IMG/VR virus record: IMGVR_UViG_3300026367_000106 | Span: 1-29,847 of that record | DNA from: a virus | Direction: 5' to 3' (one strand) | DNA length: 29,847 bases | Part shown: positions 1-23,232 of the stretch, one piece after another | How positions within the stretch are numbered: position 1 is the stretch's first letter | How the letters are laid out: the number at the start of each line of letters is the position of its first letter | Made by a program: the position numbers and the translations under genes | The notes under the pieces: generated by a model | What the model was told of the DNA's origin: nothing | Database searches by the model: none | Seen by the model: only the letters and a program-made list of their open reading frames with translations

Positions 1-363
1 CTACACTATGCCGCAAACAGTTACCTCCACTTCATTCAACCCCCTGCCCTTTGGCACATACTCAGCTGTCGTCGTTATGGAAGCAACATATTTCTGATCG
101 TCATCCGGAAAAACCCCACACGCCACCAAGCCGTCCTCTATCATCTTCTGCATATAAGCGTGATTAGAGATATCCAGGCGGGAACCATTGAGTTTGAAGT
201 GATAGTGGCACGAGACAGGGAAGTTGCCGGTGTAGGGCTGTGGTTGGCTTGCTAGGACCGCCATGTGGTACATATCTTTGTGCTTGGCCCTAGTACGAAA
301 ATGAATACCTGAGTAAATCTTATTAAGGCTTATCTTCTCTGGAATTGGGATAGTGATCTTCAC
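1..363 (-). CDS. rusA: RusA-like Holliday junction resolvase
   Basis: Probable RusA-family endodeoxyribonuclease, which resolves Holliday junctions in phage and prophage recombination. The N-terminus has the usual IPEKISLNKIY stretch. The signature half follows: a conserved Asp and Asn (LDISNH), Lys in YMQKMIEDGL, then GVFPDDDQKY with the acidic cluster. From the second of two adjacent GTG codons the protein is 120 aa, the same length as E. coli RusA. I preferred GTG because the longer reading to an ATG at 420 would pass through a rho-independent terminator hairpin (381-410). A -10 box TATACT ends 6 bases before this GTG, so the mRNA is probably leaderless. It is the last gene seen of a leftward early-type cluster; the window edge coincides with its TAG stop. 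Confidence 0.8.
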   Translation of the reverse strand: MKITIPIPEKISLNKIYSGIHFRTRAKHKDMYHMAVLASQPQPYTGNFPVSCHYHFKLNGSRLDISNHAYMQKMIEDGLVACGVFPDDDQKYVASITTTAEYVPKGRGLNEVEVTVCGIV

Positions 364-380
364 CACTCTAGTATACCAAA
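361..380 (-). promoter_or_regulatory. Leaderless-type promoter of the RusA gene
   Basis: Read on the minus strand there is TGGTATACT (extended -10, TATACT at 370-375), then six bases, then the GTG start. There is no Shine-Dalgarno site. It sits immediately downstream of a terminator, so the gene is probably its own transcription unit. Confidence 0.6.
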
Positions 381-410
381 GCAAAAGCCCCCGTTCGCAG
401 TGGGGGCCTT
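381..410 (-). terminator. Rho-independent terminator
   Basis: On the minus strand a GCCCCC/GGGGGC stem with a 9-base loop is followed by CTTTTGC. It closes the upstream leftward transcripts just before the RusA promoter. Confidence 0.7.
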
Positions 411-431
411 TGTCATACAACGTAAAGTAAC

Positions 432-2163: not shown

Positions 2164-2517
2164 CTAAATTGGCAACGTCTCAATAATTTCTCGGGCCACT
2201 CCCCCTTCGAGCACCACCCGCCTGACTGTCCTGTTACCGCTAGGGCAGAATTTATAGTGGGCGTGGCCATTGACCAGCTCCCGCTCAATCTTCGCTCCAG
2301 CCAGTAGCTCCCTAGCGCGGGTATGTTCTGGGGTATCTGTCAGGGCGTGAGGCCATTGTGACACCTCCACAAGGATTCGTAGTCTCCGGCCAACGGTTTC
2401 TCCTGTCACACCCATCTTGTCACGGGCAAGGTCGGCGATAGTGGCTTTGGCGATGCTGATGTTTGGATTCTTAGCCAGATATTTGACCAGACGCTCTTGT
2501 AGTGAGGTGTGTGACAT
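2164..2517 (-). CDS. Winged-helix-like small protein (117 aa)
   Basis: The N-terminal 50 residues (LQERLVKYLAKNP, then TIADLARDKMGVTGETVGRR) read like a helix-turn-helix: a first helix, a turn, and a recognition helix with GETVGRRL. The remaining half (HYKFCPSGNRTVRRVV) resembles a wing. Probably a DNA-binding regulator or replication accessory protein. No clear Shine-Dalgarno; it follows the 52-aa gene by 3 bases, so coupling is likely. No match to a specific family can be claimed. Confidence 0.55.
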   Translation of the reverse strand: MSHTSLQERLVKYLAKNPNISIAKATIADLARDKMGVTGETVGRRLRILVEVSQWPHALTDTPEHTRARELLAGAKIERELVNGHAHYKFCPSGNRTVRRVVLEGGVAREIIETLPI

Positions 2518-2520
2518 AGG

Positions 2521-2679
2521 TTATTTTTTAGTAACTTGCTTGGCATGGTGGCTTGCCCTGATGCGCTTTCGCTTGCAGGTAAAGCAGGTCCTCTTATGTT
2601 TCCTTACCCCTTCCACCTCATTCTTACAGCCTAGTATCTGGCACTTGATAATGTACTTCTGGACTGGAGTATCGGTCAT
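2521..2679 (-). CDS. Zinc-ribbon microprotein (52 aa)
   Basis: Contains CQILGC and CFTCKRKR: two cysteine pairs separated by 14 residues, flanked by many Lys and Arg. This looks like a small nucleic-acid-binding zinc ribbon. The start overlaps the stop of the preceding gene as ATGA. Confidence 0.55.
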   Translation of the reverse strand: MTDTPVQKYIIKCQILGCKNEVEGVRKHKRTCFTCKRKRIRASHHAKQVTKK

Positions 2680-2822
2680 GCGCTTTTCTTATACTTACTG
2701 ATAAATTGCAGGTGTAGCTCCTTGCATGGCTTGCCCTTGCAGTACTGTCGCTTTTCTAGGCCGGTGAGGTCGTAGACGCGACGGTGGCAGAAGGCGCAGT
2801 GTGCTTTGGGGCGGATGGTCAT
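2676..2822 (-). CDS. Zinc-finger microprotein (48 aa)
   Basis: Contains CAFC near residue 9 and YCKGKPC near residue 28, giving four cysteines. It starts a few bases after the TAG of the TM2 gene and ends in an ATGA overlap with the 52-aa gene. The arrangement resembles the 55-aa and 68-aa proteins at 635-1008, so they may share ancestry. Confidence 0.55.
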   Translation of the reverse strand: MTIRPKAHCAFCHRRVYDLTGLEKRQYCKGKPCKELHLQFISKYKKSA

Positions 2823-2825
2823 AGA

Positions 2826-3065
2826 CTACGTCCAGTCCGTTAGCTTCCGCCCATCCCCATCCCTGAACTCGCCACAAATGATTGTGATCCAGTCAATCAA
2901 ATTCCAGATGGCCGATACGATTAGGCCAACAAAGGAAATAGTCAGTAGTAACATCACTACACCTGTCCCAATCTTCCCTACATAGAAGCGGTGGGCGCCT
3001 AGTGGGCCAAGAAAGAAGGATAAGAGGAACGCGGGCAGAATTAGTTTGGTTGATTTTTCGGTCAT
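2826..3065 (-). CDS. TM2-domain membrane protein (79 aa)
   Basis: Typical TM2 domain: a first hydrophobic helix ([24 protein letters not shown], shown here in part as the LGAHRFY turn), then a second helix ([20 protein letters not shown]), then NLIDWITI. The GxxGxHRFYxG turn between the two helices is the family signature. TM2 proteins are small inner-membrane proteins of unsettled function. The start overlaps the stop of the 42-aa gene as ATGA. Confidence 0.75.
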
Positions 3066-3190
3066 ATAGTTAGTAGGATAAACGCCCCTACAGTCAGTCC
3101 CATCAGTATCAAGGCGTGTCGCTGGTAATACTTGCCACCCTGAGGCCTCGGGGTGAGGCGGTCACGGGCGGTCTTGGTGTCTTTTTCCAT
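3062..3190 (-). CDS. Single-span membrane microprotein (42 aa)
   Basis: Polar, basic first half ([20 protein letters not shown]) and one C-terminal hydrophobic helix ([17 protein letters not shown]). ATG follows the upstream TAG by three bases, and its TGA overlaps the TM2 start. Possibly a partner of the TM2 protein. No family recognised. Confidence 0.5.
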
Positions 3191-3193
3191 ACG

Positions 3194-3850
3194 CTATTCA
3201 GTTGGCTCAGCAGTATCTACTAGCGCTGTTTCTTCTACGGGTTCGACCTTTGGTGCCTCTTGCTGTACTGGTGCTGGTGTAGGGGCCGTTTCAGCAACCT
3301 GGGGGGCTGATTTAGTTGCCTCAAACGGATTACCGTCGATAAATAATTCGTTGATGTTGAAGCCATCAGCCTGCACTTTTGCCCAAGCGTCTTTTGCTTC
3401 TGCTGGTAGCTCACTATGTGGCGAGTTCACTGTGGTGTACTTGGTGTCCATCCCTGAGCCTTCTCTTGTCACAGTCAGGTTGTAGCCAAGTGGCGATCCC
3501 CAGTCTGTGTCACGTGCGTATGCCTCGATTGCCTCCTGAATGCTCTTTTGCGGGATTTCTAATACTTCGACGTGGCCGGTGTTAAAGTTGAATACCGGCA
3601 TTGCCCAAAAATGGTTTACCTTACCTTCCTTAAAAGATGAAGTGTCGGACGGTTTTTCATTCATAGCAAATCTGAAAGGCTTGTTCTTACCCTCAACAAC
3701 CTTCCAACCTGCATATCCAAAAATTGGCTTCTGTAGAATGCGAAACTTGTATTTTCCTGGGTTCTTAAAGCTCATGTACTGGCTGTCACTCTTTGGTACC
3801 TCGTAATTTGCTGGGGCGTTTCCAAAGAAGTCGTCTGTAGTTGTATCCAT
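3194..3850 (-). CDS. Putative phage single-stranded DNA-binding protein (218 aa)
   Basis: Residues about 25-150 contain YMSFKNPGKYKFRILQKPI followed by GYAGWKV, then a short FRF segment. This resembles phage SSB-like folds in which an OB domain begins with a PGKYKFRIL-type strand. The last 60 residues are Pro/Ala/Glu-rich and end acidic (VDTAEPTE), like the flexible acidic tails of SSB proteins that recruit replication partners. It lies with RusA in an early-type cluster, which fits DNA replication or recombination. The family call is by motif and architecture only. Confidence 0.55.
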   Translation of the reverse strand: MDTTTDDFFGNAPANYEVPKSDSQYMSFKNPGKYKFRILQKPIFGYAGWKVVEGKNKPFRFAMNEKPSDTSSFKEGKVNHFWAMPVFNFNTGHVEVLEIPQKSIQEAIEAYARDTDWGSPLGYNLTVTREGSGMDTKYTTVNSPHSELPAEAKDAWAKVQADGFNINELFIDGNPFEATKSAPQVAETAPTPAPVQQEAPKVEPVEETALVDTAEPTE

Positions 3851-3858
3851 ATGTCTTG

Positions 3859-4008
3859 TTAGTTTGATGTAAATAATTGGTTTCTAATTTCCTCTTGCCA
3901 GGCCCAGTAGTCTTTGTATCGGCTAAGGGATTGGCCTTCTTGGTTCTTCACTGGTTCTGTACATTTCGGCATGTCGCGGTCTATGGCGTTTGCCTCAAAG
4001 CCTTCCAT
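3859..4008 (-). CDS. Small protein (49 aa), unknown
   Basis: Begins MEGFEANAIDRDMPKC and has an aromatic helix RYKDYWAWQEEIRNQLF. It starts one base after the stop of the 69-aa gene and ends before the SSB-like gene, so it is packed within the operon. No function can be assigned. Confidence 0.5.
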   Translation of the reverse strand: MEGFEANAIDRDMPKCTEPVKNQEGQSLSRYKDYWAWQEEIRNQLFTSN

Positions 4009-4009
4009 A

Positions 4010-4219
4010 TTAGTAGTCTTTGATTACTGCCTCAATGTCTAGCTTGCCAGTGGTAGCAGCGTGTCGGAAGATGGCTGTTGCCATTGTGTACACCCGCTGT
4101 CTGGTGGTGTTTAATTTCGCTGCCGTATCGTTTACTCCAGCTTCTCCTTTAAGGAACTTAAGTAGCGCTTTCTTAGCAGCAGCACTTAGCTTGTATTTTG
4201 ATGTGATTACTATTGGCAT
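4010..4219 (-). CDS. Small helix-turn-helix-type protein (69 aa)
   Basis: Contains AAKLNTTRQRVYTMATAIFRHA, which reads as a helix-turn-helix (AAKLNTTRQRVYT). It is first in the leftward early operon, and the operator-like repeats at 4258-4284 lie just upstream, so it may regulate its own operon. No Shine-Dalgarno is visible. Confidence 0.5.
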   Translation of the reverse strand: MPIVITSKYKLSAAAKKALLKFLKGEAGVNDTAAKLNTTRQRVYTMATAIFRHAATTGKLDIEAVIKDY

Positions 4220-4257
4220 GTTTGGGTTGTTAATTATTGCTGTTCGACCTACTGAGA

Positions 4258-4284
4258 AGTATACAGGAAGTATGAAAGTATACT
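4258..4284 (-). promoter_or_regulatory. Promoter/operator with repeated TATACT boxes
   Basis: Two TATACT -10-like boxes (4258-4263 and 4277-4282, minus strand) are 19 bases apart, with a third GTAT half-site between them and a GTATAC palindrome at each end. It lies upstream of the 69-aa gene and is probably the promoter and operator of the early operon. Confidence 0.5.
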
Positions 4285-4307
4285 AGTAAAGTTGTCCCCA
4301 CATACAA

Positions 4308-4336
4308 AAAGGCCCCCAAAGAATGAAGGCCAATTT
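4308..4336 (-). terminator. Terminator downstream of the holin gene
   Basis: On the minus strand GGCCTTC pairs with GGGGGCC (with G-T pairs), followed by TTTTTG. A second hairpin (CGGGT/ACCCG with outer CTAT/ATAG, about 4352-4385) lies between it and the holin stop. Apart from these signals and the promoter, 4220-4389 holds no gene. Confidence 0.6.
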
Positions 4337-4389
4337 GCAAGACACATCTGCTATAGACGGGTTGGTAGCACCCGCTGATAGTGTAGCAC

Positions 4390-4626
4390 CTACTTTCTCA
4401 ACAAAAGAGCATAGACTGCCGATGATGAGGACAGTACTAGAATGACTGTCTCAAAGTATGGGGTGTTCTGGATGCCAACATACAATCCACCAAAGGCAAT
4501 TGATAGACCAATAGTGAGCAACTTGGTAGCTGTTGAAGTGGTGCCATACCGCCCTTTAATCATCTGCACCAACACTGATAGTAATGCTCCTACTACTGCA
4601 ATGGCTGTAAAGTCTGTTATTTCCAT
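4390..4626 (-). CDS. Holin-like small membrane protein (78 aa)
   Basis: Three predicted membrane segments at about 6-22, 34-50 and 58-75, a short polar linker (KGRYGTTSTATK) and a charged C-terminus (LLLRK). Size and layout fit phage holins of the r1t-like type, which open the inner membrane so that the cell-wall hydrolase can act. It follows the hydrolase fragment, the normal order for a lysis cassette. Start chosen at the only ATG. Confidence 0.6.
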   Translation of the reverse strand: MEITDFTAIAVVGALLSVLVQMIKGRYGTTSTATKLLTIGLSIAFGGLYVGIQNTPYFETVILVLSSSSAVYALLLRK

Positions 4627-4633
4627 AAGTAAA

Positions 4634-4864: not shown

Positions 4865-5243
4865 CTGGGGCTGGTAGCGTCTTTTTAATGGCGTGGATGC
4901 CGGTCACTGACACGTTGGCAAGGCTTTCATTAAATACGTCGCCATTAAGCCGTAGCTGGGTCTTTACGTCGCTGTTGTATGGGACTTGTAGGGGGGTCAC
5001 GACAATATCGTTTACCTTCACCTCAGTAATGGTGTGAACGGGGTCAATTGACTGGATGGACAGGCCACAGCCGTCATACAAGCGCGTCGTTGCTTCTGTC
5101 CGGTAAATAGGGAAGCCAGCCAGCTCGTCGCAGTGTTCACTCATGGCGTCAATGTAAGCCGTCAGTTGATTAGTGAAGGCTGGGTCTAGCTGTTGCTGGA
5201 TGTAGTTCTCGACAGCAAGTTTTGTCGTATATCGTTCGTTCAT
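4818..5243 (-). CDS. Head-tail connector (gp6-like), 3' end altered
   Basis: 141 aa. N-terminal helices (LAVENYIQQQLDP, NQLTAYIDAMSEHCDEL) are followed by YDGCG and beta-rich segments with LRLNGDVF and VSVTGIHA. This pattern fits gp6-like head-tail connector proteins, which form a ring under the portal. The last residues (FVARGHYH) come from the overlap with the hydrolase fragment, so the native C-terminus is probably lost. A -10 box TACAAT (extended TGC) ends 6 bases before the ATG. The family call is moderate. Confidence 0.55.
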   Translation of the reverse strand: MNERYTTKLAVENYIQQQLDPAFTNQLTAYIDAMSEHCDELAGFPIYRTEATTRLYDGCGLSIQSIDPVHTITEVKVNDIVVTPLQVPYNSDVKTQLRLNGDVFNESLANVSVTGIHAIKKTLPAPVAHACTVFVARGHYH

Positions 5244-5258
5244 GGCCTTATTGTAGCA
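5244..5258 (-). promoter_or_regulatory. Leaderless-type promoter of the connector gene
   Basis: Minus strand: TGC TACAAT, six bases, ATG. The six bases contain AAGG, so a weak Shine-Dalgarno reading is also possible. Confidence 0.5.
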
Positions 5259-6467
5259 CTAAGAACAATCGTTATTCCCAAATGGGGTGAAGGGGCTGAC
5301 CTTGGCTGAGAAAGGGCTATCCATCGGGCAGAACGGCTTTACATACGATACTTTCTCAATCGTCGCGTCGTTACCTGTCACAGCAAACGTCCCTGGCTCC
5401 ACACCTATCCTGTAGCGGGCCAAAATGCCTGCTGGTGAGGCAGTAAGGGTAAAGACGGCTGTTTGGACGGCAATGGTGTATCGGGCCAAGAGTGAGGCGT
5501 TCTGTCCGGTCAAAGCAAACGCTCCAGTGCCACAGGCGATACGCAGGCGTCGCAAGAATGAGACGTCCTTGCCAGTGAGGCTGTATTGCGCTGTTTGGGT
5601 GGCGATACGGTAGCGCCCAAGGATGTTGGCCACGTTGCCAGTTAAGGCGAATACGCCAGTCTCACACGCCAGGCGGTACCGCTTGAGAATATTGGCGGCT
5701 TGTCCGGTAAGGGTGAAGCTGGCTGGCTGGGCTTGTAGGCGGTAGCGGGCGAGGATGTTGGTGGGGGTGCCGGTGGTGGTGAATGAGGCAGGGTCGCAGG
5801 TGATTGTGTAGGTGGGGGTTGGTGGCCCGCTTGCTGCTGGTTTAAATGCAATTGCGGTACCTCCATATCCACGAGTACCAGTGAAGCTCATTCTGGCATT
5901 TCCTGTTTGAGCTGTGACGATTCCATTTGAATCAGCGATACCATTTAATCCTGTACTGCTCCCAGCTCTAAGAGTTGGGGTCAGTAGTCCACCTGAATTC
6001 CAATTATCATCTACGTTTGTACCTGAAATTATCCACCAAGCGTCTTCTGCTGTTGTTAAGGGAATAGTAATTATATTTCCGCTACCGATACTATTAGAAA
6101 TATTACTTGTTAAAACAGGGCTGGTTTGGTCAACACCACTATACGAAACTATGGTTATAGACATAATACCATTTCCACCAACAGCGGTGACGACAAGGTC
6201 ATTTAATCCAGAAGATGGCGCTTTTAAATAGAATGAGTGAGTGCGCCAGTTTGGGGTACCAGGAAAAACCTGAATGTTTTGTGCAATCCGTGTCACTGCT
6301 ACACCATTGTAGTTAGCAGATACAGAAGTTGGATTGCCAGTTGTCCAGTTTGCAGTAGTTGCTGAGATGAACAGAAATCCATCACTACCTGTACAAGCGT
6401 GAGCCACTGTCCTTACAGCCCCCGATTTAAATCCAAATTCTGTTTTCTTATCAAATGCTATGGCCAT
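5259..6467 (-). CDS. Fibre- or adhesin-like protein with seven 22-aa repeats
   Basis: 402 aa from the ATG at 6467 (an upstream in-frame ATG lies beyond the promoter and was rejected). Residues 1-205 form a beta-rich domain with VSANYNGVAVTRI, HSFYLKAPSSGLNDLVVT and SYSGVDQTSPV, a layout seen in many phage and environmental surface proteins. Residues 220-373 are seven tandem 22-residue repeats of the pattern YRIAxxTxxFxLTGxxAxILAR. The C-terminus has two cysteines (FCPMDSP, NNDCS). It lies among the capsid genes and has its own promoter, so a capsid decoration or receptor-binding role is likely. The first domain and the repeats may be separately acquired. Confidence 0.6.
   Translation of the reverse strand: MAIAFDKKTEFGFKSGAVRTVAHACTGSDGFLFISATTANWTTGNPTSVSANYNGVAVTRIAQNIQVFPGTPNWRTHSFYLKAPSSGLNDLVVTAVGGNGIMSITIVSYSGVDQTSPVLTSNISNSIGSGNIITIPLTTAEDAWWIISGTNVDDNWNSGGLLTPTLRAGSSTGLNGIADSNGIVTAQTGNARMSFTGTRGYGGTAIAFKPAASGPPTPTYTITCDPASFTTTGTPTNILARYRLQAQPASFTLTGQAANILKRYRLACETGVFALTGNVANILGRYRIATQTAQYSLTGKDVSFLRRLRIACGTGAFALTGQNASLLARYTIAVQTAVFTLTASPAGILARYRIGVEPGTFAVTGNDATIEKVSYVKPFCPMDSPFSAKVSPFTPFGNNDCS
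5349..5810. repeat. Seven tandem 66-bp coding repeats
   Basis: Seven diverged in-frame copies of a 66-bp unit encode the 22-residue repeats of the 402-aa protein. DNA divergence is high while the protein pattern (Tyr-Arg, Phe, Leu-Thr-Gly, Leu-Ala-Arg) is kept, which suggests selection on the protein. Confidence 0.8.
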
Positions 6468-6483
6468 TCCCAACAGTATAGCA
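6468..6483 (-). promoter_or_regulatory. Leaderless-type promoter of the repeat protein
   Basis: Minus strand: TGC TATACT, seven bases (GTTGGGA), ATG. GGGA touches the ATG and is too close for a normal ribosome site. Confidence 0.6.
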
Positions 6484-9522: not shown

Positions 9523-10179
9523 TTACTTTTTATATTGTCTGATCGCCTTATTCAGGGCAGCGATGGCCTTAGCCTTGCTTGTTGCCTCAATAGGGCTTGT
9601 AGTTGCTACTTTCTCAATGGTTTTCTTAGTATCAATAAGACTGTCCTTAATGTCCTTTACATCCTCGGTGTCCTTAATAAGCGCCCGCCTGTTAGAGCCA
9701 ATACCTACCAAGCTACATTCCATCAGCTCACAATTCTTAAGGACATAGGCGTCCTTTGTTTCGTCGTAGTCTACTACTTGGGGGATGAAGCCGACGCTCA
9801 CCATGTTCAAGTCGCCACGGACTACATGTTTCCAGGCCCGCTCGATGTCGGCGTGTACATCAACGGCAAACTCAGCCACACCTACTAGCATCTTCTGCTC
9901 TGGGTTCTCAGGGTCTACTTCCAGCTTCACAGATAGCCACTTGCCAAGGGGGAACTCGTTGGACCGGTGGCCCCAGAAAAAGGCAGGGTTCTCAAGGAAG
10001 TGTTTAAGGTTCCAGGTATCTTGGTCAACGATATCGCCGTGACGGTCGATTGATGCTGTACTCATCACAAAAGTGGCGGTAAAGTTATTCTCGTCAATGG
10101 TGACGGCCTTGATAGCAACGTCTACATCAATGCGACTGCCTTGTATTTCTGCTGCTTTGGCTTGGTACTGGAGTTTCAT
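9523..10179 (-). CDS. HK97-family prohead protease
   Basis: 218 aa. Contains FVMSTASIDRHGDIVD, then FFWGHRS (candidate catalytic His), and DLNMVSVGF (candidate catalytic Ser), the hallmark order of U35-type prohead proteases. About 50 C-terminal residues are Lys/Asp/Glu-rich and helical, possibly a scaffold-interacting tail. Encoded between portal and capsid as usual. A -10 box TATACT with TGC ends 6 bases before ATG, and no ribosome site is present. Confidence 0.87.
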   Translation of the reverse strand: MKLQYQAKAAEIQGSRIDVDVAIKAVTIDENNFTATFVMSTASIDRHGDIVDQDTWNLKHFLENPAFFWGHRSNEFPLGKWLSVKLEVDPENPEQKMLVGVAEFAVDVHADIERAWKHVVRGDLNMVSVGFIPQVVDYDETKDAYVLKNCELMECSLVGIGSNRRALIKDTEDVKDIKDSLIDTKKTIEKVATTSPIEATSKAKAIAALNKAIRQYKK

Positions 10180-10194
10180 AGTTAGAGTATAGCA
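10180..10194 (-). promoter_or_regulatory. Leaderless-type promoter of the protease-capsid operon
   Basis: Minus strand: TGC TATACT, six bases (CTAACT), ATG. No Shine-Dalgarno in between. Confidence 0.65.
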
Positions 10195-10461: not shown

Positions 10462-12459
10462 TTATACAGTAGGCCCGAGAACACACCGGCAGTTAATTGA
10501 CTGCTCAGCCGGATAACTTTCCCCGCTTGGGAACGAACCGCCCTTGGCCACTATCTTGCCGTCATTCTCCTGGTGTTCTGGTCGCACCTTGGCGTCACCA
10601 ACACTAATCCACTCCATGCCAGTAATGACTGAGGATTGCTTATAAGCGTCATGGGAGGCTTTGCTGAGCGTGTAACCTGTCTCTGTTCGGGCGATGGTCA
10701 AAGCCCGCTTCACACTCATATCTTCAAAGTAGTTGCGTAACTCACGGCCTATCTTATCCGGCCCATCCCCTGCCTTTAGCCCGCCCAGTATCTTCTCCTG
10801 CAACACGGCAAAGGTAGTCTCGGTCATTGAATTAGTGAAGAAGTCGGCTCGGGCGCTGATTGCCGCCATTAACACCTCATCAGCCCAGAAGTTGTCCGCT
10901 GACTTCTTGAAAACGGCGTCTAAGGCCGCTTGCCCACCGTCTTTGTATAGCTGGTGCAAGATTGGGGTGAAAAGCATTCTAGCGGCGGTTTTCTCGGCCC
11001 CTAGGTCCATGAATCCTTCCGGCTGGAGGTCAGTTGCTAGGATGCGCTCCAGCTGTCCGGCGTGAAAGGCGTCAATGGCTTCCTTGAGAACCTCAGATTT
11101 CTTATCTACCCGCTTGTTGTACGCCTTGGCATAGCCGTCCTTGAGGCTCTTGGTTGGGAAGATACTGTTGAGGTGACGCTTTGGCTCACTTGATACCATT
11201 AGCGCGTCTACGGTCAATTCCTTGGCCCTGAGGGTCTTCGCTAGGATTGGTCGGCGTCGGATGATGCCCTTGGCCTCTTGCTGGACCGCTTGGGGGGTGC
11301 TGAATGTTACGGCCCCTAAAGTGTCGTAGCCTGCGAGTTCCGGTCGGCCTGTCTCAATACGCGCCTCGTTCTGGGTGATCCACTTGCCTACACCAGCCTG
11401 GTGTTCCTTGAGCATCTGCTCGCGGTCGTTTGGTGTTGGGTCGTCAAAGCGGAAAAACAGGGCCTGGTCAAAGGTCGGTAGGAGACGGTTGTTTATCACG
11501 TCGATGAAGGCGTCCAATACAGGCACCACGGCTTCTTGCAGGAACATCTTATACGCTTCCTGCGAGTCAGTTTTGTTGACGTTGCCACTTGTAACCATTG
11601 CCTCAGGCACACCAAGGGCAGCGAGAATGTCGCCGCGTAGGAAATGCTGGGTATCCATCAGCCCCATCTCTACTGGGGTCTTGTTCAGCTCCTGGATGGC
11701 CTTGATGTTGTTCCCAAAGAAGCCAGCCTGCCCGCCATTATTGCCCCCAAAGGTTTTCTTCCACAACGCGCGGGCTTTGTTCCCTTTTTCATCGTCAACA
11801 GGACCATCGACAAAGACAGCCACGTCCGGACGGCCTTGGTTCTTGAGGAAGTTGGCCTGGTACTCGCCAGCGGCTTTTTCGGTAATGATACGGATGTGAG
11901 CTGGACGCACGGCCCCTACCCCACGCAAGATGTTCGTCGGGTCTGGATTCTGGATGTGTACGATGTCTTCTGGCTTGAACTTGGTCACCGTTCCCGACCG
12001 GTGCTCGTAGGCCACAATCTTCTTGTTATCAGCAGACAGGATGATGTCCATCTGGTCAGGCCTAAGTGTGACCATACTCATGTCATCGCGGTTTATGTAC
12101 CAAAAAACGTCACCTGATAGCAGGTAATGGGCGCACGATGTTTCGATAAAGACGCGCTGGGTTTGCAGGTCATTGGGATTATAGAAAAGGTCCAGGATCT
12201 GGTGGTCAAAGACTTCTTCGGTGTCGCCGCTGGTCCCCTTAATCTTGTGTAGCTCCAGGGGGATACTTGCCATGCGCTTGGCAATCTTTGAAACGGCAAT
12301 GTAGAGATACAGGCTGTCTTTGTATGAGTTCAGGCTACGGCTGTCGGTAAAGTTCTCGATGCCGGTGACTTGGTTATTGCTGTATGAAGTAAAAGTGGTC
12401 AGCTTTTCTTTGGTGTCCGGCTCCGGTCTTTTAAACAGTCTGGATAGTGGGTTTCGCAT
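10462..12459 (-). CDS. Portal protein fused to a MuF-like head morphogenesis domain
   Basis: 665 aa from the internal ATG at 12459 (a longer frame would run through the promoter). Residues about 1-390 are a HK97-type portal: YIAVSKIAKRMASIP, HQILDLFYNPND, then AAGEYQANFLKNQGRPDV, and LGVPEAMVTSGNVNKTDSQEA. Residues about 450-665 are MuF-like: RALTIARTETGY, PEHQENDGKIV and SINCRCVLGP. The portal is the DNA gate of the capsid and the terminase docking ring; MuF proteins are minor capsid proteins. Fusions of the two are known in phages. TATAAT lies nine bases before ATG. Confidence 0.88.
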   Translation of the reverse strand: MRNPLSRLFKRPEPDTKEKLTTFTSYSNNQVTGIENFTDSRSLNSYKDSLYLYIAVSKIAKRMASIPLELHKIKGTSGDTEEVFDHQILDLFYNPNDLQTQRVFIETSCAHYLLSGDVFWYINRDDMSMVTLRPDQMDIILSADNKKIVAYEHRSGTVTKFKPEDIVHIQNPDPTNILRGVGAVRPAHIRIITEKAAGEYQANFLKNQGRPDVAVFVDGPVDDEKGNKARALWKKTFGGNNGGQAGFFGNNIKAIQELNKTPVEMGLMDTQHFLRGDILAALGVPEAMVTSGNVNKTDSQEAYKMFLQEAVVPVLDAFIDVINNRLLPTFDQALFFRFDDPTPNDREQMLKEHQAGVGKWITQNEARIETGRPELAGYDTLGAVTFSTPQAVQQEAKGIIRRRPILAKTLRAKELTVDALMVSSEPKRHLNSIFPTKSLKDGYAKAYNKRVDKKSEVLKEAIDAFHAGQLERILATDLQPEGFMDLGAEKTAARMLFTPILHQLYKDGGQAALDAVFKKSADNFWADEVLMAAISARADFFTNSMTETTFAVLQEKILGGLKAGDGPDKIGRELRNYFEDMSVKRALTIARTETGYTLSKASHDAYKQSSVITGMEWISVGDAKVRPEHQENDGKIVAKGGSFPSGESYPAEQSINCRCVLGPTV

Positions 12460-12474
12460 ATATGGCTGATTATA
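12460..12474 (-). promoter_or_regulatory. Near-leaderless promoter of the portal gene
   Basis: Minus strand: TATAAT (12469-12474), nine bases, ATG. Expected transcription start is within about three bases of the start codon. Confidence 0.45.
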
Positions 12475-12476
12475 CA

Positions 12477-13721: not shown

Positions 13722-14175
13722 CAGGTTTCATGGTTACAAAAGCAATAGAGTTTGACTTGATTGGCTTGTCGCCACTGGTGACGTCTGTCCGGTCAGTCAT
13801 GCCGTGATTGGATGCCAGGATTAGTTTGGCGATAGTCGGATTGTAGTCGCCATTAAGGCTATGTTCTATGACTAATCGCTTCTGTTCAGCTACTACTGCT
13901 TCCAAAGAGTCGGAAAACGTGGTGTGGTTGTCACGCCATTCGTAGAGAGTAGAACGATTTACTCCTAAATGTTTTGCTAAACCTTCAATAGTAGGCAAGG
14001 TAATTGTCACTTTGCGCTCATACGAATTGGACTTCTCACCTACTGTCTTGTCGTAATCCCAAAAGTCATTGCCACAAGTATCTAAATAGCCATCAGCTTT
14101 CTTTTGCATAGCTGGAGTGTACTTACTTGGTCGTCCTGTTGCCTTCTTCTCTGGAGTAGTTTTAGCTTTTGCCAT
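13702..14175 (-). CDS. terS: Terminase small subunit
   Basis: 157 aa. Begins GRPSKYTPAMQKKADGYLD, then TIEGLAKHLGVNRSTLYEWRD (helix-turn-helix), FSDSLEAVVAEQKRLV, and AKLILASNHGMTDRTD, the normal motif order of this family. It recognises the packaging site and stimulates TerL. The gene begins the packaging operon. TAACAT with TGG in the extended position ends six bases before ATG. Confidence 0.88.
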   Translation of the reverse strand: MAKAKTTPEKKATGRPSKYTPAMQKKADGYLDTCGNDFWDYDKTVGEKSNSYERKVTITLPTIEGLAKHLGVNRSTLYEWRDNHTTFSDSLEAVVAEQKRLVIEHSLNGDYNPTIAKLILASNHGMTDRTDVTSGDKPIKSNSIAFVTMKPDGADSQ

Positions 14176-14190
14176 ACATAAATGTTACCA
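14176..14190 (-). promoter_or_regulatory. Leaderless-type promoter of the packaging operon
   Basis: Minus strand: TGG TAACAT, six bases (TTATGT), ATG. No Shine-Dalgarno. Confidence 0.5.
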
Positions 14191-14415
14191 CGGCCTATCC
14201 TTATCAATAAAGCGCCAGACCTTTCGCCTCCCACGCCTCACCCGCTTCACAGTCAGGTTGGTGTGGTGGTGGATGGCAAAGGCGTCAGCCGTTAGCTCAG
14301 TCCGATACTCAGGGGCGAGGTCCATAAAGGATACGTCCCTGAGTAATTCACCCTTGGCCACCCTCATACTGTAAAGGGAAAGCTGGATGTGTTGGATGCT
14401 GTACCGGCTTCGCAT
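14185..14415 (-). CDS. Small basic protein upstream of terS (76 aa)
   Basis: Begins MRSRYSIQHIQLSLYSMRVAKG, with a C-terminal basic run (KRVRRGRRKVWRF). A strong extended -10 (TGCTATAAT) lies 12 bases upstream, so the leader would be only about five bases. Unknown family; position before terS suggests a late-gene regulator or packaging helper, unproven. Confidence 0.5.
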   Translation of the reverse strand: MRSRYSIQHIQLSLYSMRVAKGELLRDVSFMDLAPEYRTELTADAFAIHHHTNLTVKRVRRGRRKVWRFIDKDRPW

Positions 14416-14436
14416 AGTTGCATAGTGATTATAGCA
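14416..14436 (-). promoter_or_regulatory. Extended -10 promoter before the 76-aa gene
   Basis: Minus strand: TGC TATAAT (14428-14433) then 12 bases to the ATG. An earlier ATG four bases after the box is out of frame. Confidence 0.55.
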
Positions 14437-15188: not shown

Positions 15189-16046
15189 TTACTCTGCTGC
15201 CATTTGCTGTTCTTGCTTCTGGGTGAGCCAGTTCACGGCCTTCTGTGCATCAGCGCTGGCTTTGAATATAAAGCGATTTTCGTTTTTAAGCGCCATGAGC
15301 CAGGATTGCAAATACTGGGCATGGTCCAGCCTTGGCTCATTGGTGATGCCTAGCTTGGCACAGCAGAACGCCGCCCCTAGCTCAGCCACAAGTTCTTCAT
15401 AGGCGTAACAGGTATCGCCAAACTTGCCAGTCAGGTCACGATCCAGCCGTTTCTTGTGGCCGGTGGCGTGGGTAAGTTCATGGAAGATGGTGCTGTAGAA
15501 AGCTTCTTGTCTGGAACTCGTTGGGGTGTCAAAGAAAAGCCAGTCATTGGGGATGTACACCTCATCTGAGGCAGGCATGTAACACGCCCTCTCGCCCTTC
15601 TCAGTCACTTTTATGCCAGTGGCGGTAATCATGGCGTCAGCGACCTCCAATCGCTCCACAGGGCCATTATCAGGCACCTCAGGAGCTTTGTAGCCTTCCA
15701 CCTGACTAGCGTTGAACACACGGCTGTACTTGAGAACAAAACGCTTATCCTCGCCTTCTTTCTCCGGCAACGGCTTGTAGAATACGATCACCGACGATTT
15801 AGCCCCTTTCTGGACCTGTGCGCCTGCTTCCTGCCATTGCTTATAAGATGCCCAGTCTGAGCTGGTGTGGCCGTAGACGGCGGATGAAGCCCACAGGCTC
15901 AAAATATTCACGCCGTTATATTCATTGTTAGTCGTGGGATTGGTTGGCAAGCCTACCGCTGAGCGATGCCAGGGCATTACTAGCTTGCCAGGGTCATTTT
16001 CGATAGCGTCAATAATAGATAGAGTGACGGTTGCAAAGACGTCCAT
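15189..16046 (-). CDS. ArdC-like antirestriction protein / zincin metalloprotease
   Basis: 285 aa. N-terminal half (PWHRSAVGLPTNPTT, NGVNILSLWASS, WASYKQWQEAGAQVQKGAKS) matches the ssDNA-binding domain of ArdC and related TraC primase-type proteins. C-terminal half has a metallopeptidase motif HELTHATGHKKRLDRD followed by YEELVAELGAAF, where Glu would be the third metal ligand. ArdC proteins travel with conjugative plasmids and protect incoming DNA. GGAG eight bases upstream supports the ATG. It sits beside the replication-type block, so a role in protecting the element's DNA on entry is plausible. Confidence 0.85.
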   Translation of the reverse strand: MDVFATVTLSIIDAIENDPGKLVMPWHRSAVGLPTNPTTNNEYNGVNILSLWASSAVYGHTSSDWASYKQWQEAGAQVQKGAKSSVIVFYKPLPEKEGEDKRFVLKYSRVFNASQVEGYKAPEVPDNGPVERLEVADAMITATGIKVTEKGERACYMPASDEVYIPNDWLFFDTPTSSRQEAFYSTIFHELTHATGHKKRLDRDLTGKFGDTCYAYEELVAELGAAFCCAKLGITNEPRLDHAQYLQSWLMALKNENRFIFKASADAQKAVNWLTQKQEQQMAAE

Positions 16047-16097
16047 TGGTACTTCTCCAGATGTAAGGAACTACTGGGGGGATTGTACCATTGGGTA

Positions 16098-16937: not shown

Positions 16938-17149
16938 ACAGCATTTTCAAGTACGTCATCACTCGCCCCAAGCGCTTTTAGTAGCTTCTTGGCTGTTAGG
17001 ACAGTGGTGCGAGACTGTTCTGTTCGTAGCTTGCTGATATGGGTGAAGTGTACGCCGGACAGCTCTGCTAGTTTCCGGTCTGACATCTTCTGCTCTTTCA
17101 TTAGTGCGCCTAAGGGAATTAGGTGGACTGTCTTGATTTCTACGATCAT
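16934..17149 (-). CDS. XRE/Cro-C1 family regulator (71 aa)
   Basis: Helix-turn-helix in MSDRKLAELSGVHFTHISKLR, followed by LTAKKLLKALGASDD. Size fits a Cro- or antitoxin-like single-domain regulator. TAATCT ends six bases before ATG and no ribosome site is present. It is the second gene after the 46-aa gene and heads the operon 16098-17149. Confidence 0.75.
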   Translation of the reverse strand: MIVEIKTVHLIPLGALMKEQKMSDRKLAELSGVHFTHISKLRTEQSRTTVLTAKKLLKALGASDDVLENAV

Positions 17150-17161
17150 ATTAAAAGATTA
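17150..17161 (-). promoter_or_regulatory. Possible leaderless-type promoter of the XRE gene
   Basis: Minus strand: TAATCT (17156-17161), six bases, ATG. It overlaps the stop of the 46-aa gene. Weaker than the TATACT sites. Confidence 0.35.
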
Positions 17162-17394: not shown

Positions 17395-17399
17395 AGTAT

Positions 17400-17997: not shown

Positions 17998-18120
17998 CTA
18001 CCTAAGACACACGCCACAATCCTCACACACTACTAGGTAATGGTGGTCGATTTCTTCTTTTGTGTGTTGGCAGTCGGTCCACTTGCCATAGCGCAGTAAA
18101 TTATTGAGTCTTTTCAACAT
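17998..18120 (-). CDS. Cysteine-rich microprotein (40 aa)
   Basis: Begins MLKRLNNLLRYGKW; ligands DCQH and VCEDCGVC could bind one zinc. Strong GGAGGTG four bases before ATG, inside the 3' end of the 311-aa gene, with a 20-base overlap. Real by ribosome site and position; function unknown. Confidence 0.6.
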   Translation of the reverse strand: MLKRLNNLLRYGKWTDCQHTKEEIDHHYLVVCEDCGVCLR

Positions 18121-19036
18121 CAGTCACCTCCATATACAAAGGAGTATCATCTAAGCCAGCTCGTTTCCAGTCACTGGTTAATAAATCTGGAAATGGCGGG
18201 GGAGCAGTAAAGAGAAGTTCTTGTACTGGGATGTCGTGGAACAGGAACATGTTGGTACTACCATATAGCCTAGTGGCAAGGTCTACAGCTGTCTGGGTAC
18301 GTGCCTTGGTCGGAAACGCAAACAATACACGCAGGTTGGGGATACCAAGCTGTTTGTATGTTTTCTTGTCGATAATGTCCTTGTAGCCCAGTAGTTTCTT
18401 GAGCGTACTGGCGCGGTTGAGGTCTTTTGGTTCTACTGGATTGAAATTTTCAACTTCCAGGACAAAGAAGCTCACCTGCCCATTGGGGTAACGGATGCCA
18501 AACAAGCCATCTGGGACCAGTTTGCCCCGTACAGACGTGCCTTTGTAGCTGGTGGAAAACTCTAGGCGCTGGGGGTCTGCAACGCCCAGACGGGCCACTA
18601 TCTCAGTCCAGGGGATAAACTCACAGTCAGTCCGGTTCACCCCTATCTCAATGCTGGCAAGGCTGTCACAAATCATCATCGCGTGGGCAAAGTTCTTTAC
18701 CGGCGCGTCTCCCCTTCGCCTATCCAGCCTCGTCACTTTCAAGGGATGCCGGTCGTGGTCGATAAGGACTTGCTCACCTTTCTTAGTGATTGAGTGGATG
18801 CGCGGACACCACAGATTGTTGTATCCACGCTTCTGCTCTCGGGGCTGGAAGATGTATCCTTGCTTCCGTCTTCTCTGGAGCTGATGAATAATGCCGTGGT
18901 TGCCACAGTCTAGTAGATCACGAATGAAAGAAGTCCTGAGGTACTTGTACCGGCTCAGTAGTGTAAGCAGGTCAAGCAACTCAGGAGTGATGATGTGGTA
19001 GCCGGTCTTTTGTGGCTTTCCAGTTGGTTTGGTCAT
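18101..19036 (-). CDS. Replication-relaxation family protein
   Basis: 311 aa. N-terminal winged helix (ELLDLLTLLSRYKYLRTS, DLLDCGNHGIIHQLQRRRKQG) followed by a domain with NFAHAMMICDSLASIEIG, KLVPDGLFGI, FFVLEVENFNPVEP and LGYKDIIDKK. This matches the plan of the replication-relaxation family found on plasmids and integrative elements, probably DNA-binding factors that act at an origin. It lies next to the VirD4-type ATPases and the CHC2-like gene. TATACT ends six bases before ATG. Whether it nicks DNA cannot be said from the sequence. Confidence 0.75.
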   Translation of the reverse strand: MTKPTGKPQKTGYHIITPELLDLLTLLSRYKYLRTSFIRDLLDCGNHGIIHQLQRRRKQGYIFQPREQKRGYNNLWCPRIHSITKKGEQVLIDHDRHPLKVTRLDRRRGDAPVKNFAHAMMICDSLASIEIGVNRTDCEFIPWTEIVARLGVADPQRLEFSTSYKGTSVRGKLVPDGLFGIRYPNGQVSFFVLEVENFNPVEPKDLNRASTLKKLLGYKDIIDKKTYKQLGIPNLRVLFAFPTKARTQTAVDLATRLYGSTNMFLFHDIPVQELLFTAPPPFPDLLTSDWKRAGLDDTPLYMEVTDVEKTQ

Positions 19037-19048
19037 GGCTCAAGTATA
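19037..19048 (-). promoter_or_regulatory. Leaderless-type promoter of the replication-relaxation gene
   Basis: Minus strand: TATACT (19043-19048), six bases, ATG. No Shine-Dalgarno. Confidence 0.6.
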
Positions 19049-19052
19049 CATG

Positions 19053-19538
19053 CTACCAGCGACGCTCTAAGGCGACCGTAGGGTTTTTTATGTAGGCAAG
19101 GCAGAAGGCCCTCTGGTCGGTAACATAGTCCTTGTACTTTTTGTAGTACCTACTTTGGCCGATAATCTCAGCCATTAAGATATTTCGCCATTGGCATGTC
19201 TGTTCACTCAGCCCATAAAAGACGTGGAGATGTTCAAGCATCATGTTGCAGACTTCTGTCTCACCTGGCAAGGAGAAGTCTGCCTCACCTTTCCAGTGAC
19301 ACCAATCATGCCAGGCACGAAAGGCATGGTTCACTTCTGCTTCACCAAAGATGGTAGTACCGGATGCACCGCCGTAAACAATCATCTCAAGCCCCAGGTC
19401 CATGCGCTTCTTTAGTGCTGCATAAGTCGATGGGGCATCATCTGATGTTGTAAAGTTTGGAACAAAGTGCGCGGCAATTCTTAGCACCGCTTTATTTAGT
19501 TTTACGTCAAGTGGGGTGGTTGTGGTTATTTGTGACAT
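19053..19538 (-). CDS. Hypothetical protein (161 aa)
   Basis: Contains KLNKAVLRIAAHFVP, then EVNHAFRAWHDWCHWKGEAD, then EVCNMMLEHLHVFYGLSEQT and EIIGQSRYYKKYKDYVTDQR. His-rich and aromatic, mostly helical. Similar-looking proteins occur on mobile elements, but no function is known to me. The ATG at 19538 is preceded by GGAG at seven bases; the in-frame ATG 12 bases earlier was rejected. The ribosome site is part of a perfect hairpin (see 19543-19562), so translation may be controlled. Confidence 0.6.
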   Translation of the reverse strand: MSQITTTTPLDVKLNKAVLRIAAHFVPNFTTSDDAPSTYAALKKRMDLGLEMIVYGGASGTTIFGEAEVNHAFRAWHDWCHWKGEADFSLPGETEVCNMMLEHLHVFYGLSEQTCQWRNILMAEIIGQSRYYKKYKDYVTDQRAFCLAYIKNPTVALERRW

Positions 19539-19542
19539 GATC

Positions 19543-19562
19543 GTCTCCATTGGTTAGGAGAC
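19543..19562 (-). promoter_or_regulatory. Hairpin that hides the ribosome site of the 161-aa gene
   Basis: GTCTCC and GGAGAC form a perfect 6-bp stem with an 8-base loop, and GGAG is the Shine-Dalgarno of the gene starting at 19538. A candidate protein- or RNA-controlled switch. Confidence 0.45.
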
Positions 19563-19796
19563 TCCCAATAATCACACAAAAGCGCGGCTGTATAAGAGCG
19601 CTATGAGGCGGTATGGGTTAAATGATTGGAGTGATAGTTTGTGAGTAATGCCCTTGAGTGACTATGAGTAGGTATAAAGTTTTTGTTACCAACTCCCCTA
19701 CTGGTATGGATGTCACTCAAATGCGGAATATTCTAGAAAAGGGTGACGATAGAGAGGGTGGGGAAGACCCCTTACCTTGCCGAGATATGGCCTAAA
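19563..19796. other. Intergenic stretch between the 161-aa gene and the large ATPase
   Basis: No convincing minus-strand gene. A plus-strand frame 19664-19795 could encode 43 aa (MSRYKVFVTNSPTGMDVTQM...) but has no good ribosome site and opposes all neighbours, so it is not called. A GGGG-AAGA-CCCC hairpin is at 19770-19781; no clear terminator. Confidence 0.4.
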
Positions 19797-21608
19797 CTAA
19801 GGCTCGTTTGTCCATTCACCCGACTCAGGTACATCAGGGGTCCCTCCGCCTGGTTTCGGGCTTGTCGGCGCGCGGGGGACCGGATTATTGCCACTTCCCT
19901 TCGGCGCGTACCGCTTCCGCATCTCATCTCGGATGGCCGATAAGGTGGATATATCGGGTAGATTTTCAAACCAGCTTTTTTCTACTCTATATCTGATAGT
20001 GCCATATCCTTTTACATAGGCAGCGAAACTTCCCTTCGGTTGACTGAAAACATACTCAGGTGTTGTCTGCATCTGACGCGATAACTTCTGCGCATCTTCA
20101 ATAGAACAACCCCCAGCAAACTTGATGGTAGTATTACTTGAAATTGTCGGAAGTAGTCCAGAAGAGAGACGACCTAGTGATTGGTGCGCGATAACCAAAC
20201 CAATTTCATATTTCCGCGTTTGTTCAAAAATATCAAAGAGGATATCGCTATCCTCAGCATAATCTTGAAATTCATCAATGTAGACGTAGGTTCGTTTCCC
20301 TTTCCCTTCTTCCCTACTAATGGCAGCACGATACAACTGCGCAATAAAAAGTCGGCCAAGCAACGACGCACCTTGCTTTGACATGTGTTTTTTATCAGTA
20401 GAAATGAGAAGCACTTTGCCAGTATCAATAATAGTCCGAATATCAATATCGTTACCGCTTGCTCCAACCATCACTGCAAACTTTTTATTGCTCACCAGGG
20501 CAAAGATACGTCTGCATATTTCCTCACGAGTTCTATTTTTTCCTTTGGCGGAAAATTCTCCCTCGAAGAATTTTAGTTCCATTTCGTCTAATGAATCGGC
20601 ATACTTTTGCCATTCGTCACCTTCTTCAAGAATATCAAACATAGTTCGCAAATTTCCACCACAATTTACAACCATTTCTGATACAAAGGTAAAATAATAC
20701 GATTGAAGACCAGTCAGCTCAACCTGTAAAGCAGCAAACATGTACTGGAATAATTCAGCGCTGGTATCGCCATGAAATAGGTTCAGTGCAGGTGGACAGT
20801 GCATCGGGTCTACAAGTACTAGTTTTTCTAGCGGCACTTTAGTTGCTATTAAGTTTATTAGTGCATTTTGGCTATCAATAACTACTACTGAGTGACCGGC
20901 TTTAATATCCCTCATAATCATGTCTTTTAGCAGGGTTGTTTTACCCTGACCCGTACCAGCGAGTATCTGATGATGCTCGTTACGTATCTTCTCTGGAAGG
21001 GTGATATCGACCTTTAGATTAGAGATTGCTGTATATAGCTGATTACCTAATCGCTCCTTTACAAACGTCAGTATTTCATCGGTGTGCTTATCAATACCCG
21101 TAGGAACAAGAGTATGAAGCGGTGTGTTTCCCCTTCTCCCTGTCATGAAGTCGGGGTGTGGCAATAACTTGAAGTACTCGTTGATATACATGCTGTACTG
21201 CCCCACCAAATACGCCTCAGCCGGTGGTGAAGTCACCAGTATCCGCTCAACATCCATTTTAAACTCGGCAGGGATAGTAAGCTCGGCCATAATCTCAGCT
21301 ACATACCGCTGGCTATTGTCTACTGGCGGAAGTATCGGCGCTGGCGGGGGATTTTTACGCAACTCCAAAGCATCAGCCTTAGCCCTACGCATAAGAAGTT
21401 TGTGATAGAAAAAATTACCAAATGCGGCCATAATCAGGACTATGACCATGAAGCTGAACTGAGGGGCTAATAGGTTTAGCCAGACTAAAAAGCAGCTACC
21501 ACTCAAATATAGATATGCGTTCCGCATGTCACCTTTGGGTTTGTCAGTCGATTGGACCATGAAGTACAGCCCCAAGCCTGTCACCAATAACGCCGATATA
21601 AGCTCCAT
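19797..21608 (-). CDS. VirD4/TraD/HerA-type membrane ATPase (large)
   Basis: 603 aa. Membrane segments at about 3-19, 31-50 and 52-68, then a cytoplasmic ATPase. Walker A AGTGQGKT at 217-224, Walker B YVYIDEFQD near 441-449, and an AHQ motif near 474. This matches type IV coupling proteins, hexameric inner-membrane motors that move DNA-relaxase complexes into the secretion channel. The last 40 residues are Gly/Pro-rich. ATG overlaps the stop of the 370-aa ATPase (TGATG), with AAGGG seven bases upstream. No mating-pore genes are in the window, so the partner channel is unknown. Confidence 0.8.
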   Translation of the reverse strand: MELISALLVTGLGLYFMVQSTDKPKGDMRNAYLYLSGSCFLVWLNLLAPQFSFMVIVLIMAAFGNFFYHKLLMRRAKADALELRKNPPPAPILPPVDNSQRYVAEIMAELTIPAEFKMDVERILVTSPPAEAYLVGQYSMYINEYFKLLPHPDFMTGRRGNTPLHTLVPTGIDKHTDEILTFVKERLGNQLYTAISNLKVDITLPEKIRNEHHQILAGTGQGKTTLLKDMIMRDIKAGHSVVVIDSQNALINLIATKVPLEKLVLVDPMHCPPALNLFHGDTSAELFQYMFAALQVELTGLQSYYFTFVSEMVVNCGGNLRTMFDILEEGDEWQKYADSLDEMELKFFEGEFSAKGKNRTREEICRRIFALVSNKKFAVMVGASGNDIDIRTIIDTGKVLLISTDKKHMSKQGASLLGRLFIAQLYRAAISREEGKGKRTYVYIDEFQDYAEDSDILFDIFEQTRKYEIGLVIAHQSLGRLSSGLLPTISSNTTIKFAGGCSIEDAQKLSRQMQTTPEYVFSQPKGSFAAYVKGYGTIRYRVEKSWFENLPDISTLSAIRDEMRKRYAPKGSGNNPVPRAPTSPKPGGGTPDVPESGEWTNEP

Positions 21609-22720
21609 CAAATTCCCTTACAGTAGTTGCGACGTGTCTGGGTAATAACCTTACCAGGCATCTTTAGGTTAGGGTCAGCCAGGGGAACGGTCAAACTATC
21701 TGTGCGGGACCGGTGCCAGGGAAAGGTACGGTAGGTATGGGGTTTTAGCTCATCAAGGTTCTCAAAGCTGCTGTATTGGGTCAGGCGCTCTTGAAAGCGC
21801 ACCGCATCTTCGGGCGAGACTGTGAAGATGTGCCTCTGGGTAGCGTTCCCCATCAACGCGGCAAAGAAGCTCCGGTCCAACTGCTCAACGTACTGGTGGG
21901 CCACAGTCAGCGATACATTGAACTTCCTCAGGCCAGACAGCATCTCAGACAAGGTGGAGGCTGAGAAGTGATGGACTTCATCAATGTAGAGGCTGAAAGG
22001 AATGGTCGGGTCCCTTCGCAAACACGCCAAGTGTATGGAAGACAAAAGGACAGAACCAATCAGGGACACTTTGGATAGTCCCAACTGCCCTTGTGGCAGC
22101 CGCACGAACAAAATCTTGTCCTTTACTGTATCGGACATTGTGAACTGTCCTTTACGGCTGGATAGCAGGCGCTGGAGGCGGGGGTCGCCAAATAATACAA
22201 ATAACTTGTTGAGAGTACTGGCTGTGCTGTCCCGTTGTTCTTTGGGTGTCATGGCTGAGAAGTTGTCCCAGAAGGTTTCAAGGACAGGGCTAAAAGACAG
22301 ACCAGCCCGAAACTCTTTGTCCGTTAGCACAGCGAGACTATCGAAAAAAGACAGATTATTTTGTATCAAAGACAGGACTGTAAAGTACAAATACATGTCC
22401 ATTACTGGCGTGGTTTGTCCGTGATAACCCCAGGCGTCTTTTATCGTGTCCGATAGAGCTGTGGCCATTAGGGGCTGATTATCGACCTCAGACAGTGGGT
22501 TCCACGTGATGTAATGGGTAGGGTCGGTTGGGTCGAAAATAATAGTGTCCTTGAGCCGTGACTTGGGGACGTGTTGCAGTAGGTCATCAATATCGTCGCC
22601 GTGGGGATCAATAAAACAGACGGCGTGGCCCGCGTGGATGTCGGCGATGATTTGTTGTTTCATCAAGCTGCTCTTGCCAGAACCAGCGGACCCGATGATG
22701 TACTGATTTCTATTCTTCAT
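21608..22720 (-). CDS. VirD4/TraD/HerA-type ATPase (soluble, 370 aa)
   Basis: Starts almost at its Walker A (GSAGSGKSS, residues 10-18), so it lacks the N-terminal membrane and all-alpha domains. FIDPHGDDIDDLL, then Walker B SLYIDEVHH near 243-251 and VAHQY near 273. The pattern FIDPHGDD...LLxHVP is typical of the TraM-recognition/TraD-like ATPases on integrative elements. ATGA overlap with the HNH-like gene and TGATG overlap with the larger ATPase show a three-gene operon. The two ATPases may form a mixed complex, which is inference. Confidence 0.8.
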   Translation of the reverse strand: MKNRNQYIIGSAGSGKSSLMKQQIIADIHAGHAVCFIDPHGDDIDDLLQHVPKSRLKDTIIFDPTDPTHYITWNPLSEVDNQPLMATALSDTIKDAWGYHGQTTPVMDMYLYFTVLSLIQNNLSFFDSLAVLTDKEFRAGLSFSPVLETFWDNFSAMTPKEQRDSTASTLNKLFVLFGDPRLQRLLSSRKGQFTMSDTVKDKILFVRLPQGQLGLSKVSLIGSVLLSSIHLACLRRDPTIPFSLYIDEVHHFSASTLSEMLSGLRKFNVSLTVAHQYVEQLDRSFFAALMGNATQRHIFTVSPEDAVRFQERLTQYSSFENLDELKPHTYRTFPWHRSRTDSLTVPLADPNLKMPGKVITQTRRNYCKGI

Positions 22721-23217
22721 AGGTAACTATGCGCCATAACCGCACACCAACAGACCGGCTCCAGGAAAGACGAGCGGTGCATCTGTGGAGTAGTGGGATG
22801 GGGTGCGGTTAAGGAACAGGTCTGTAGTGAATTGTACCAGTGGAGCCATGATTGAGAAATTTTCACTTTTGAATGAACCTCGCTGTGGTGGGTGCGACAA
22901 AGCCACCTCACATTTAATGGTTCAAAGTAATTATCGTGATGCGCCTGTAGCGGATAGTTGCGGCAGCCGAACTCGCAAGTTCTCGGCTTGACTAAAGTAC
23001 CGTTGTTTACGGCTGTTCGCACTTGGCTTCGGGCAAACCTCTTTTCTGGGAACTGTGCATCAGCCTCACGCCGTCGAGCGAGAACCTCCGTACTGTTTTT
23101 CTGGTAATACCGTTTCCAGCGCAACTTCACAGCCAGTGGTTTGCAGTGGGTGCAGTACAAGTGTTGGAAACGAAAGTCTGGCAATTCCCGCTTATTGCAT
23201 AATTGGCATAGTGTCAT
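22717..23217 (-). CDS. HNH-like zinc protein (166 aa)
   Basis: Two zinc-ribbon parts: CQLC with CTHC near residues 4-25, and CEFGC ... LQAHHDNYFEPLNVRWLCRTHHSEVH near 83-117. The second is the HNH-related motif common in phage proteins (AHHxDYxxPLxVxWLCxxCH), here with THH. It may be a nicking or structure-specific nuclease. It is the first gene of the ATPase operon and its promoter faces the inverted repeat at 23257-23386, so an origin-acting role can be imagined (speculation). TACAAT ends six bases before ATG. Confidence 0.6.
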   Translation of the reverse strand: MTLCQLCNKRELPDFRFQHLYCTHCKPLAVKLRWKRYYQKNSTEVLARRREADAQFPEKRFARSQVRTAVNNGTLVKPRTCEFGCRNYPLQAHHDNYFEPLNVRWLCRTHHSEVHSKVKISQSWLHWYNSLQTCSLTAPHPTTPQMHRSSFLEPVCWCAVMAHSYL

Positions 23218-23232
23218 CGTGAAATTGTAACA
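23218..23232 (-). promoter_or_regulatory. Leaderless-type promoter of the ATPase operon
   Basis: Minus strand: TGT TACAAT (23224-23229), six bases, ATG. Confidence 0.6.

Follow-up and report, generated by a model that had tools for sequence, protein, structure and literature searches.

Extended -10 boxes close to start codons suggest leaderless or near-leaderless mRNAs in a group of phages

The window analysed here, the 29,847 bases of the IMG/VR virus record IMGVR_UViG_3300026367_000106, holds nearly all of its genes on the minus strand and represents a tailed phage, probably a temperate one. Its packaging and head genes encode TerS, TerL, a portal, an HK97-type protease and coat protein, and a head-tail adaptor, with RusA (assigned by PHROGs), ArdC, a DnaG-like zinc-ribbon protein, HNH and AlpA among the replication and other genes, together with an integrase, a second integrase-like protein, and a Replic_Relax protein that is a weak match. 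Two adjacent genes for TrwB/VirD4-like ATPases (19797-22720, minus strand) lie near the Replic_Relax-like gene and ArdC, forming a plasmid-like set in the same phage that has HK97-type structural genes, and two tRNA genes (23677-23839) are encoded on the plus strand, unlike nearly all of the protein genes. No RNA polymerase was found among the window proteins scanned, the record being possibly incomplete.

A sequence-only reading of this DNA had claimed that -10-like hexamers end a fixed 6-7 bases before the start codons of minus-strand structural and replication genes, with transcripts beginning at those codons. All of the boxes that it placed 6 bases from a start (RusA, connector, protease, TerS, XRE, Replic_Relax and HNH) could be located, that of the XRE gene being weak, as could the box 7 bases before the repeat-protein gene, and the distances of 9 and 12 bases given for the portal and the 76-aa gene are correct (Table 1). 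The start codon is ambiguous for the repeat-protein ORF, where ATG 6512 is an upstream alternative, and for RusA, where the alternative GTG 366 leaves a gap of 3. TGn precedes the box at 7 of the 10 sites, in keeping with the claim that most boxes carry it, with TG abutting the box of both the Replic_Relax and portal genes. Equally, no usable Shine-Dalgarno (SD) site is present at the listed box-bearing starts in the window, where the reading had seen no clear one; the AAGG of the connector lies inside the gap, as part of a TAAGG just 2 nt away from its ATG. ArdC, listed for contrast, is an ordinary leadered gene. Just upstream of the HNH promoter lies an inverted repeat of 27 nt (81%) around 78 nt (23256-23387).

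Table 1. Box sites in the window; gap is the number of bases between the end of the -10 hexamer and the start codon.
Gene	Positions	Strand	Box and start
RusA-like gene (1-363)	361..378	-	extended -10 TGg TATACT 375-370, gap 6 to GTG 363
Head-tail adaptor/connector (4818-5243)	5241..5258	-	extended -10 TGc TACAAT 5255-5250, gap 6 to ATG 5243
Repeat-protein ORF (5259-6467)	6465..6483	-	extended -10 TGc TATACT 6480-6475, gap 7 to ATG 6467
Prohead protease (9523-10179)	10177..10194	-	extended -10 TGc TATACT 10191-10186, gap 6 to ATG 10179
Portal	12457..12476	-	TG TATAAT 12474-12469, gap 9 to ATG 12459, short spacer after TerL stop
TerS	14173..14190	-	TGg TAACAT 14187-14182, gap 6 to ATG 14175
76-aa gene	14413..14436	-	extended -10 TGc TATAAT 14433-14428, gap 12 to ATG 14415
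ArdC (contrast case)	16044..16087	-	TACAAT 16087-16082 far upstream of ATG 16046; GGAG Shine-Dalgarno 8 nt before start
XRE-type HTH gene	17147..17161	-	weak -10-like TAATCT 17161-17156, gap 6 to ATG 17149
Replic_Relax-like gene	19034..19050	-	TG TATACT 19048-19043, gap 6 to ATG 19036
HNH endonuclease	23215..23232	-	extended -10 TGt TACAAT 23229-23224, gap 6 to ATG 23217

The window was compared with 300 dinucleotide shuffles in a motif-centred test that is independent of gene choice. The coding strand contains 13 copies of the motif TGnTA[TCA][AC][AC]T, compared with a mean of 5.8 in shuffles and with 3 copies on the other strand, and an ATG or GTG lies 6-7 nt after an extended -10 in 7 cases, compared with 0.40 in shuffles, with 0 of the 300 shuffles reaching 7 and no such case on the plus strand. 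Bare TAnnnT at gap 6-7 shows no enrichment (28 found, 27.3 expected), and the signal thus resides in the strong boxes. Strong boxes lying 3-15 nt from window starts fall at gap 6-7 in 7 of 11 cases (binomial P=0.0004, or P=0.006 without the two ambiguous starts of RusA and the repeat protein). A box at gap 6 or 7 marks a minority of genes, the majority having no such box.

Orthologues retain the box and its gap though the bases of the gap change, as is evident for the protease gene, with TATACT at gap 6 in the window and TATAAT at gap 6 in the relative L002, and for the Replic_Relax gene, with TATACT at gap 6 in the window and TACAAT at gap 6 in L003. The portal box TGTATAAT has a gap of 9 in both the window and L002, and of 7 in L003, and the gap of TerS is 6 in the window and in L003, where the box is TATACT, and 17 in L002. 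A GenBank phage from Manatee Spring (L029), whose TerL shows ~40% identity, carries boxes of the TGTGCTATAAT type 6-9 nt ahead of several of its genes, with Shine-Dalgarno sites almost absent. Furthermore, TATAAT or a close variant lies in the TerL-portal spacer 6-10 nt before the ATG at the portal position in ~15 loci.

A terminase profile search yielded 80 relatives, including L002, and the wider comparison covered 83 loci, comprising the window, three related phages, and 79 further TerL relatives, with the gene starts of the relatives set by a simple ORF rule. This comparison provides the strongest evidence. The distances of strong -10 boxes across these loci have their maximum precisely at gap 6, where such boxes precede 4.9% of 1,058 starts and 0.54% of 13,388 internal ATGs. 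After redundancy removal, by a filter that removes kinship among loci only partly, the gap-6 box is found at 43 of 932 starts (4.6%) compared with 72 of 13,388 internal ATGs (P=3e-22). TGn, for which the boxes had not been selected, precedes 23 of these 43 boxes and 4 of the 72 controls (P=7e-9), and no -35 base preference was detected among 52 gap-6 sites. T occupies position -1 in 31 of the 52, which adds little weight since 55% of all starts in these SD-poor phages have T there. SD-like 4-mers are at the same level before starts (12.9%) and at internal ATGs (14.5%) of the 83 loci.

The gap-6 box was absent from the control loci (0 of 326 genes overall), namely bacterial regions (0/194), three SD-poor Bacteroidota or gut-phage loci (0/77), and distant phages (0/55). 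SD-using relatives seldom have it (2 of 180 genes), and it is found at 22 of 380 genes in the terminase clade of the window, a clade of 34 rows in the terminase tree that also holds L002 and is mostly SD-poor. Over gaps 6-9, boxes mark 5 of 187 genes in SD-rich relatives compared with 68 of 739 in SD-poor ones (P=0.002, a statistic that ignores relatedness among loci). The human-gut record L030, which has no gap-6 boxes, was dropped.

The end of a -10 hexamer and the transcription start are ~6-7 nt apart, and a gap of 6 would therefore place +1 on the start codon. Given the TGn and the lack of a -35 preference, the simplest reading is that host sigma70-type extended -10 promoters make leaderless or near-leaderless mRNA in this phage group, which we consider very likely. 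A host sigma70-type extended -10 (TGnTATAAT), needing no -35, would drive the marked genes, with +1 either at the first base (A or G) of the start codon or no more than ~3-4 nt ahead of it. Every marked gene would then produce a leaderless or near-leaderless mRNA of its own, whose 5'-terminal start codon the ribosome would engage with no need of a Shine-Dalgarno site. That the host RNA polymerase recognises these boxes, where +1 actually falls, and that initiation is of the 70S type are what we infer from the sequence. The earlier suggestion that transcripts would begin at the start codon best accounts for the peak at gap 6, the TGn that was not selected for, the missing -35 signal, the conservation among orthologues, and the absence of the box from control genomes. 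The gap was too strongly described as fixed, with gap 6, for which no leader is predicted, being the mode over all genes of a 6-9 range, and gaps of 7-10 being common in relatives, which would give these leaders of ~1-4 nt and hence mRNAs that are not strictly leaderless; the boxes of the TerL-portal spacers, at 6-10 nt, would give leaders of 0-4 nt.

The boxes may instead be translational, reflecting AT-rich, unstructured or S1-binding start regions in SD-poor phages that resemble TATAAT. The frequent T at -1 in the SD-poor relatives and the many window genes with neither an SD site nor a box are consistent with this, as are the AT-rich start regions of SD-poor bacteria (PMC5397173). However, AT-richness predicts neither a single exact distance peak nor an upstream TG, and the three SD-poor Bacteroidota or gut-phage loci lack the gap-6 box, making this explanation unlikely. 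That the boxes are promoters of leadered transcripts, brought close to the start codons by compaction, with the main 5' ends upstream or the genes read mostly from operon mRNA, would suit the packed, co-directional genes and the short distance, at most 9 nt in 19 of 69 cases, between the upstream stop codon and the beginning of the box. We regard this as quite improbable, since compaction predicts no peak at the -10-to-+1 distance and terminator-like hairpins stand directly before some boxes (at 6506-6489 ahead of the repeat-protein box, with examples in L029 and L090), although such hairpins show no general link with these promoters (3/80 vs 17/852). Coincidence in an AT-richer intergenic background, whilst in line with the unenriched bare TAnnnT, is scarcely credible given that the strong boxes beat all 300 shuffles and that the gap-6 peak recurs over many loci.

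In the window, SD sites precede 12 of 21 genes on the integrase-to-ArdC side (14479-29120, minus strand) compared with 1 of the 17 genes of the packaging and structural block (2164-14415, minus strand; P=0.0015), with the boundary and the SD criteria of this comparison chosen after the data had been seen. Many of the SD-free late genes are also without a box, so coupling or some other route that needs no SD site must serve for them. A broader proposal, to which we give distinctly less than even credence, is that a widespread uncultured phage lineage routinely starts single genes genome-wide via leaderless extended -10 promoters, matched to a host lineage initiating largely without Shine-Dalgarno sites, and that the SD-bearing early genes and SD-free late module of the window make initiation style a layer of early/late control.

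As to the host, a terminase query found no genome relative, and an ArdC query returned relatives at <=47% only, mostly from Alphaproteobacteria. The portal profile gave only weak matches in 263 genomes of one alphaproteobacterial order, and the terminase profile gave nothing in 385 genomes of the class Alphaproteobacteria and 398 of its phylum. In 296 genomes of the Hymenobacter phylum the terminase profile gave two hits, the closer being 41% identical to the window and having no gap-6 boxes. Scans of viral contigs for the integrase, coat protein, and TrwB-like proteins found no match, and recoded stops, sought as a host clue, gave no sign that another code is needed.

The lambda cI mRNA transcribed from PRM is the classic leaderless phage mRNA. 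Leaderless initiation was first found in lambda (PMC3160421), and the boxes described here resemble cI in that a phage gene is read by the host polymerase (here predicted) from a promoter abutting the start codon. In contrast to cI, a single regulator gene, they extend over a phage family and lie at genes for structure, packaging, and replication. The late promoters of phiKZ, with T(-3)ATG(+1) overlapping the start site (PMC7598289), are likewise a phage start-site motif containing ATG; however, they are used by a phage RNA polymerase and have no conserved upstream element, whereas the boxes here are of the predicted sigma70-type extended -10 kind. Amongst bacteria, the TANNNT adjoining the ORF in Deinococcus-Thermus is the -10 of leaderless mRNAs at ~30% of ORFs, with proximity to the start being important (PMC12340547). 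The -10 beside the start codon is common to both, although the Deinococcus-Thermus genes are cellular and belong to one phylum, whilst ours belong to a phage group with TGnTATAAT boxes, and a word search of that paper finds no mention of phage or extended -10. Alphaproteobacteria are a Gram-negative class rich in leaderless mRNAs, with 375 known in Caulobacter crescentus (PMC4117421), yet those sampled hold no close portal or terminase relative.

The class of mechanism is thus known from some bacteria, and its predicted use by a phage lineage is a new form of it. Among the open-licence papers found, judged by title and the start of the abstract, none treats leaderless promoters as a shared feature of a phage group, and such a shared habit has apparently not been described previously. 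Leaderless phage mRNA is usually illustrated by single regulator genes, whereas the pattern here is family-wide and covers structural, packaging, and replication genes. Relatives that use boxes and those that use Shine-Dalgarno sites form a natural comparison of how a phage adapts to the way in which its host initiates translation, and hosts of uncultured phages may become easier to predict from the pattern. Additionally, the -10 box can guide the placement of start codons in annotation, as for the repeat protein of the window.

Further elements were observed close to gene starts and within the terminase gene. At 4263-4331 (minus strand) of the window, upstream of a 69-aa ORF at 4219, two TATACT boxes separated by 19 nt come after a terminator-like hairpin (4331-4311). 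Another hairpin (7920-8000, minus strand) lies immediately ahead of the phrog_644 gene; L002 retains it, its stem changing in a compensatory manner from GGCAG/CTGCC in the window to GCCAG/CTGGC in L002, with fold z-scores of -2.3 and -2.7. The terminase of L002 (718-2865) has an intein (PF14890) that the window terminase is without, and an HNH_3 endonuclease ORF (1770-2369) lies inside this intein in another reading frame. This ORF resembles the 'hidden HNH' elements (PMC11855218), but differs in that it sits inside a recognisable intein.
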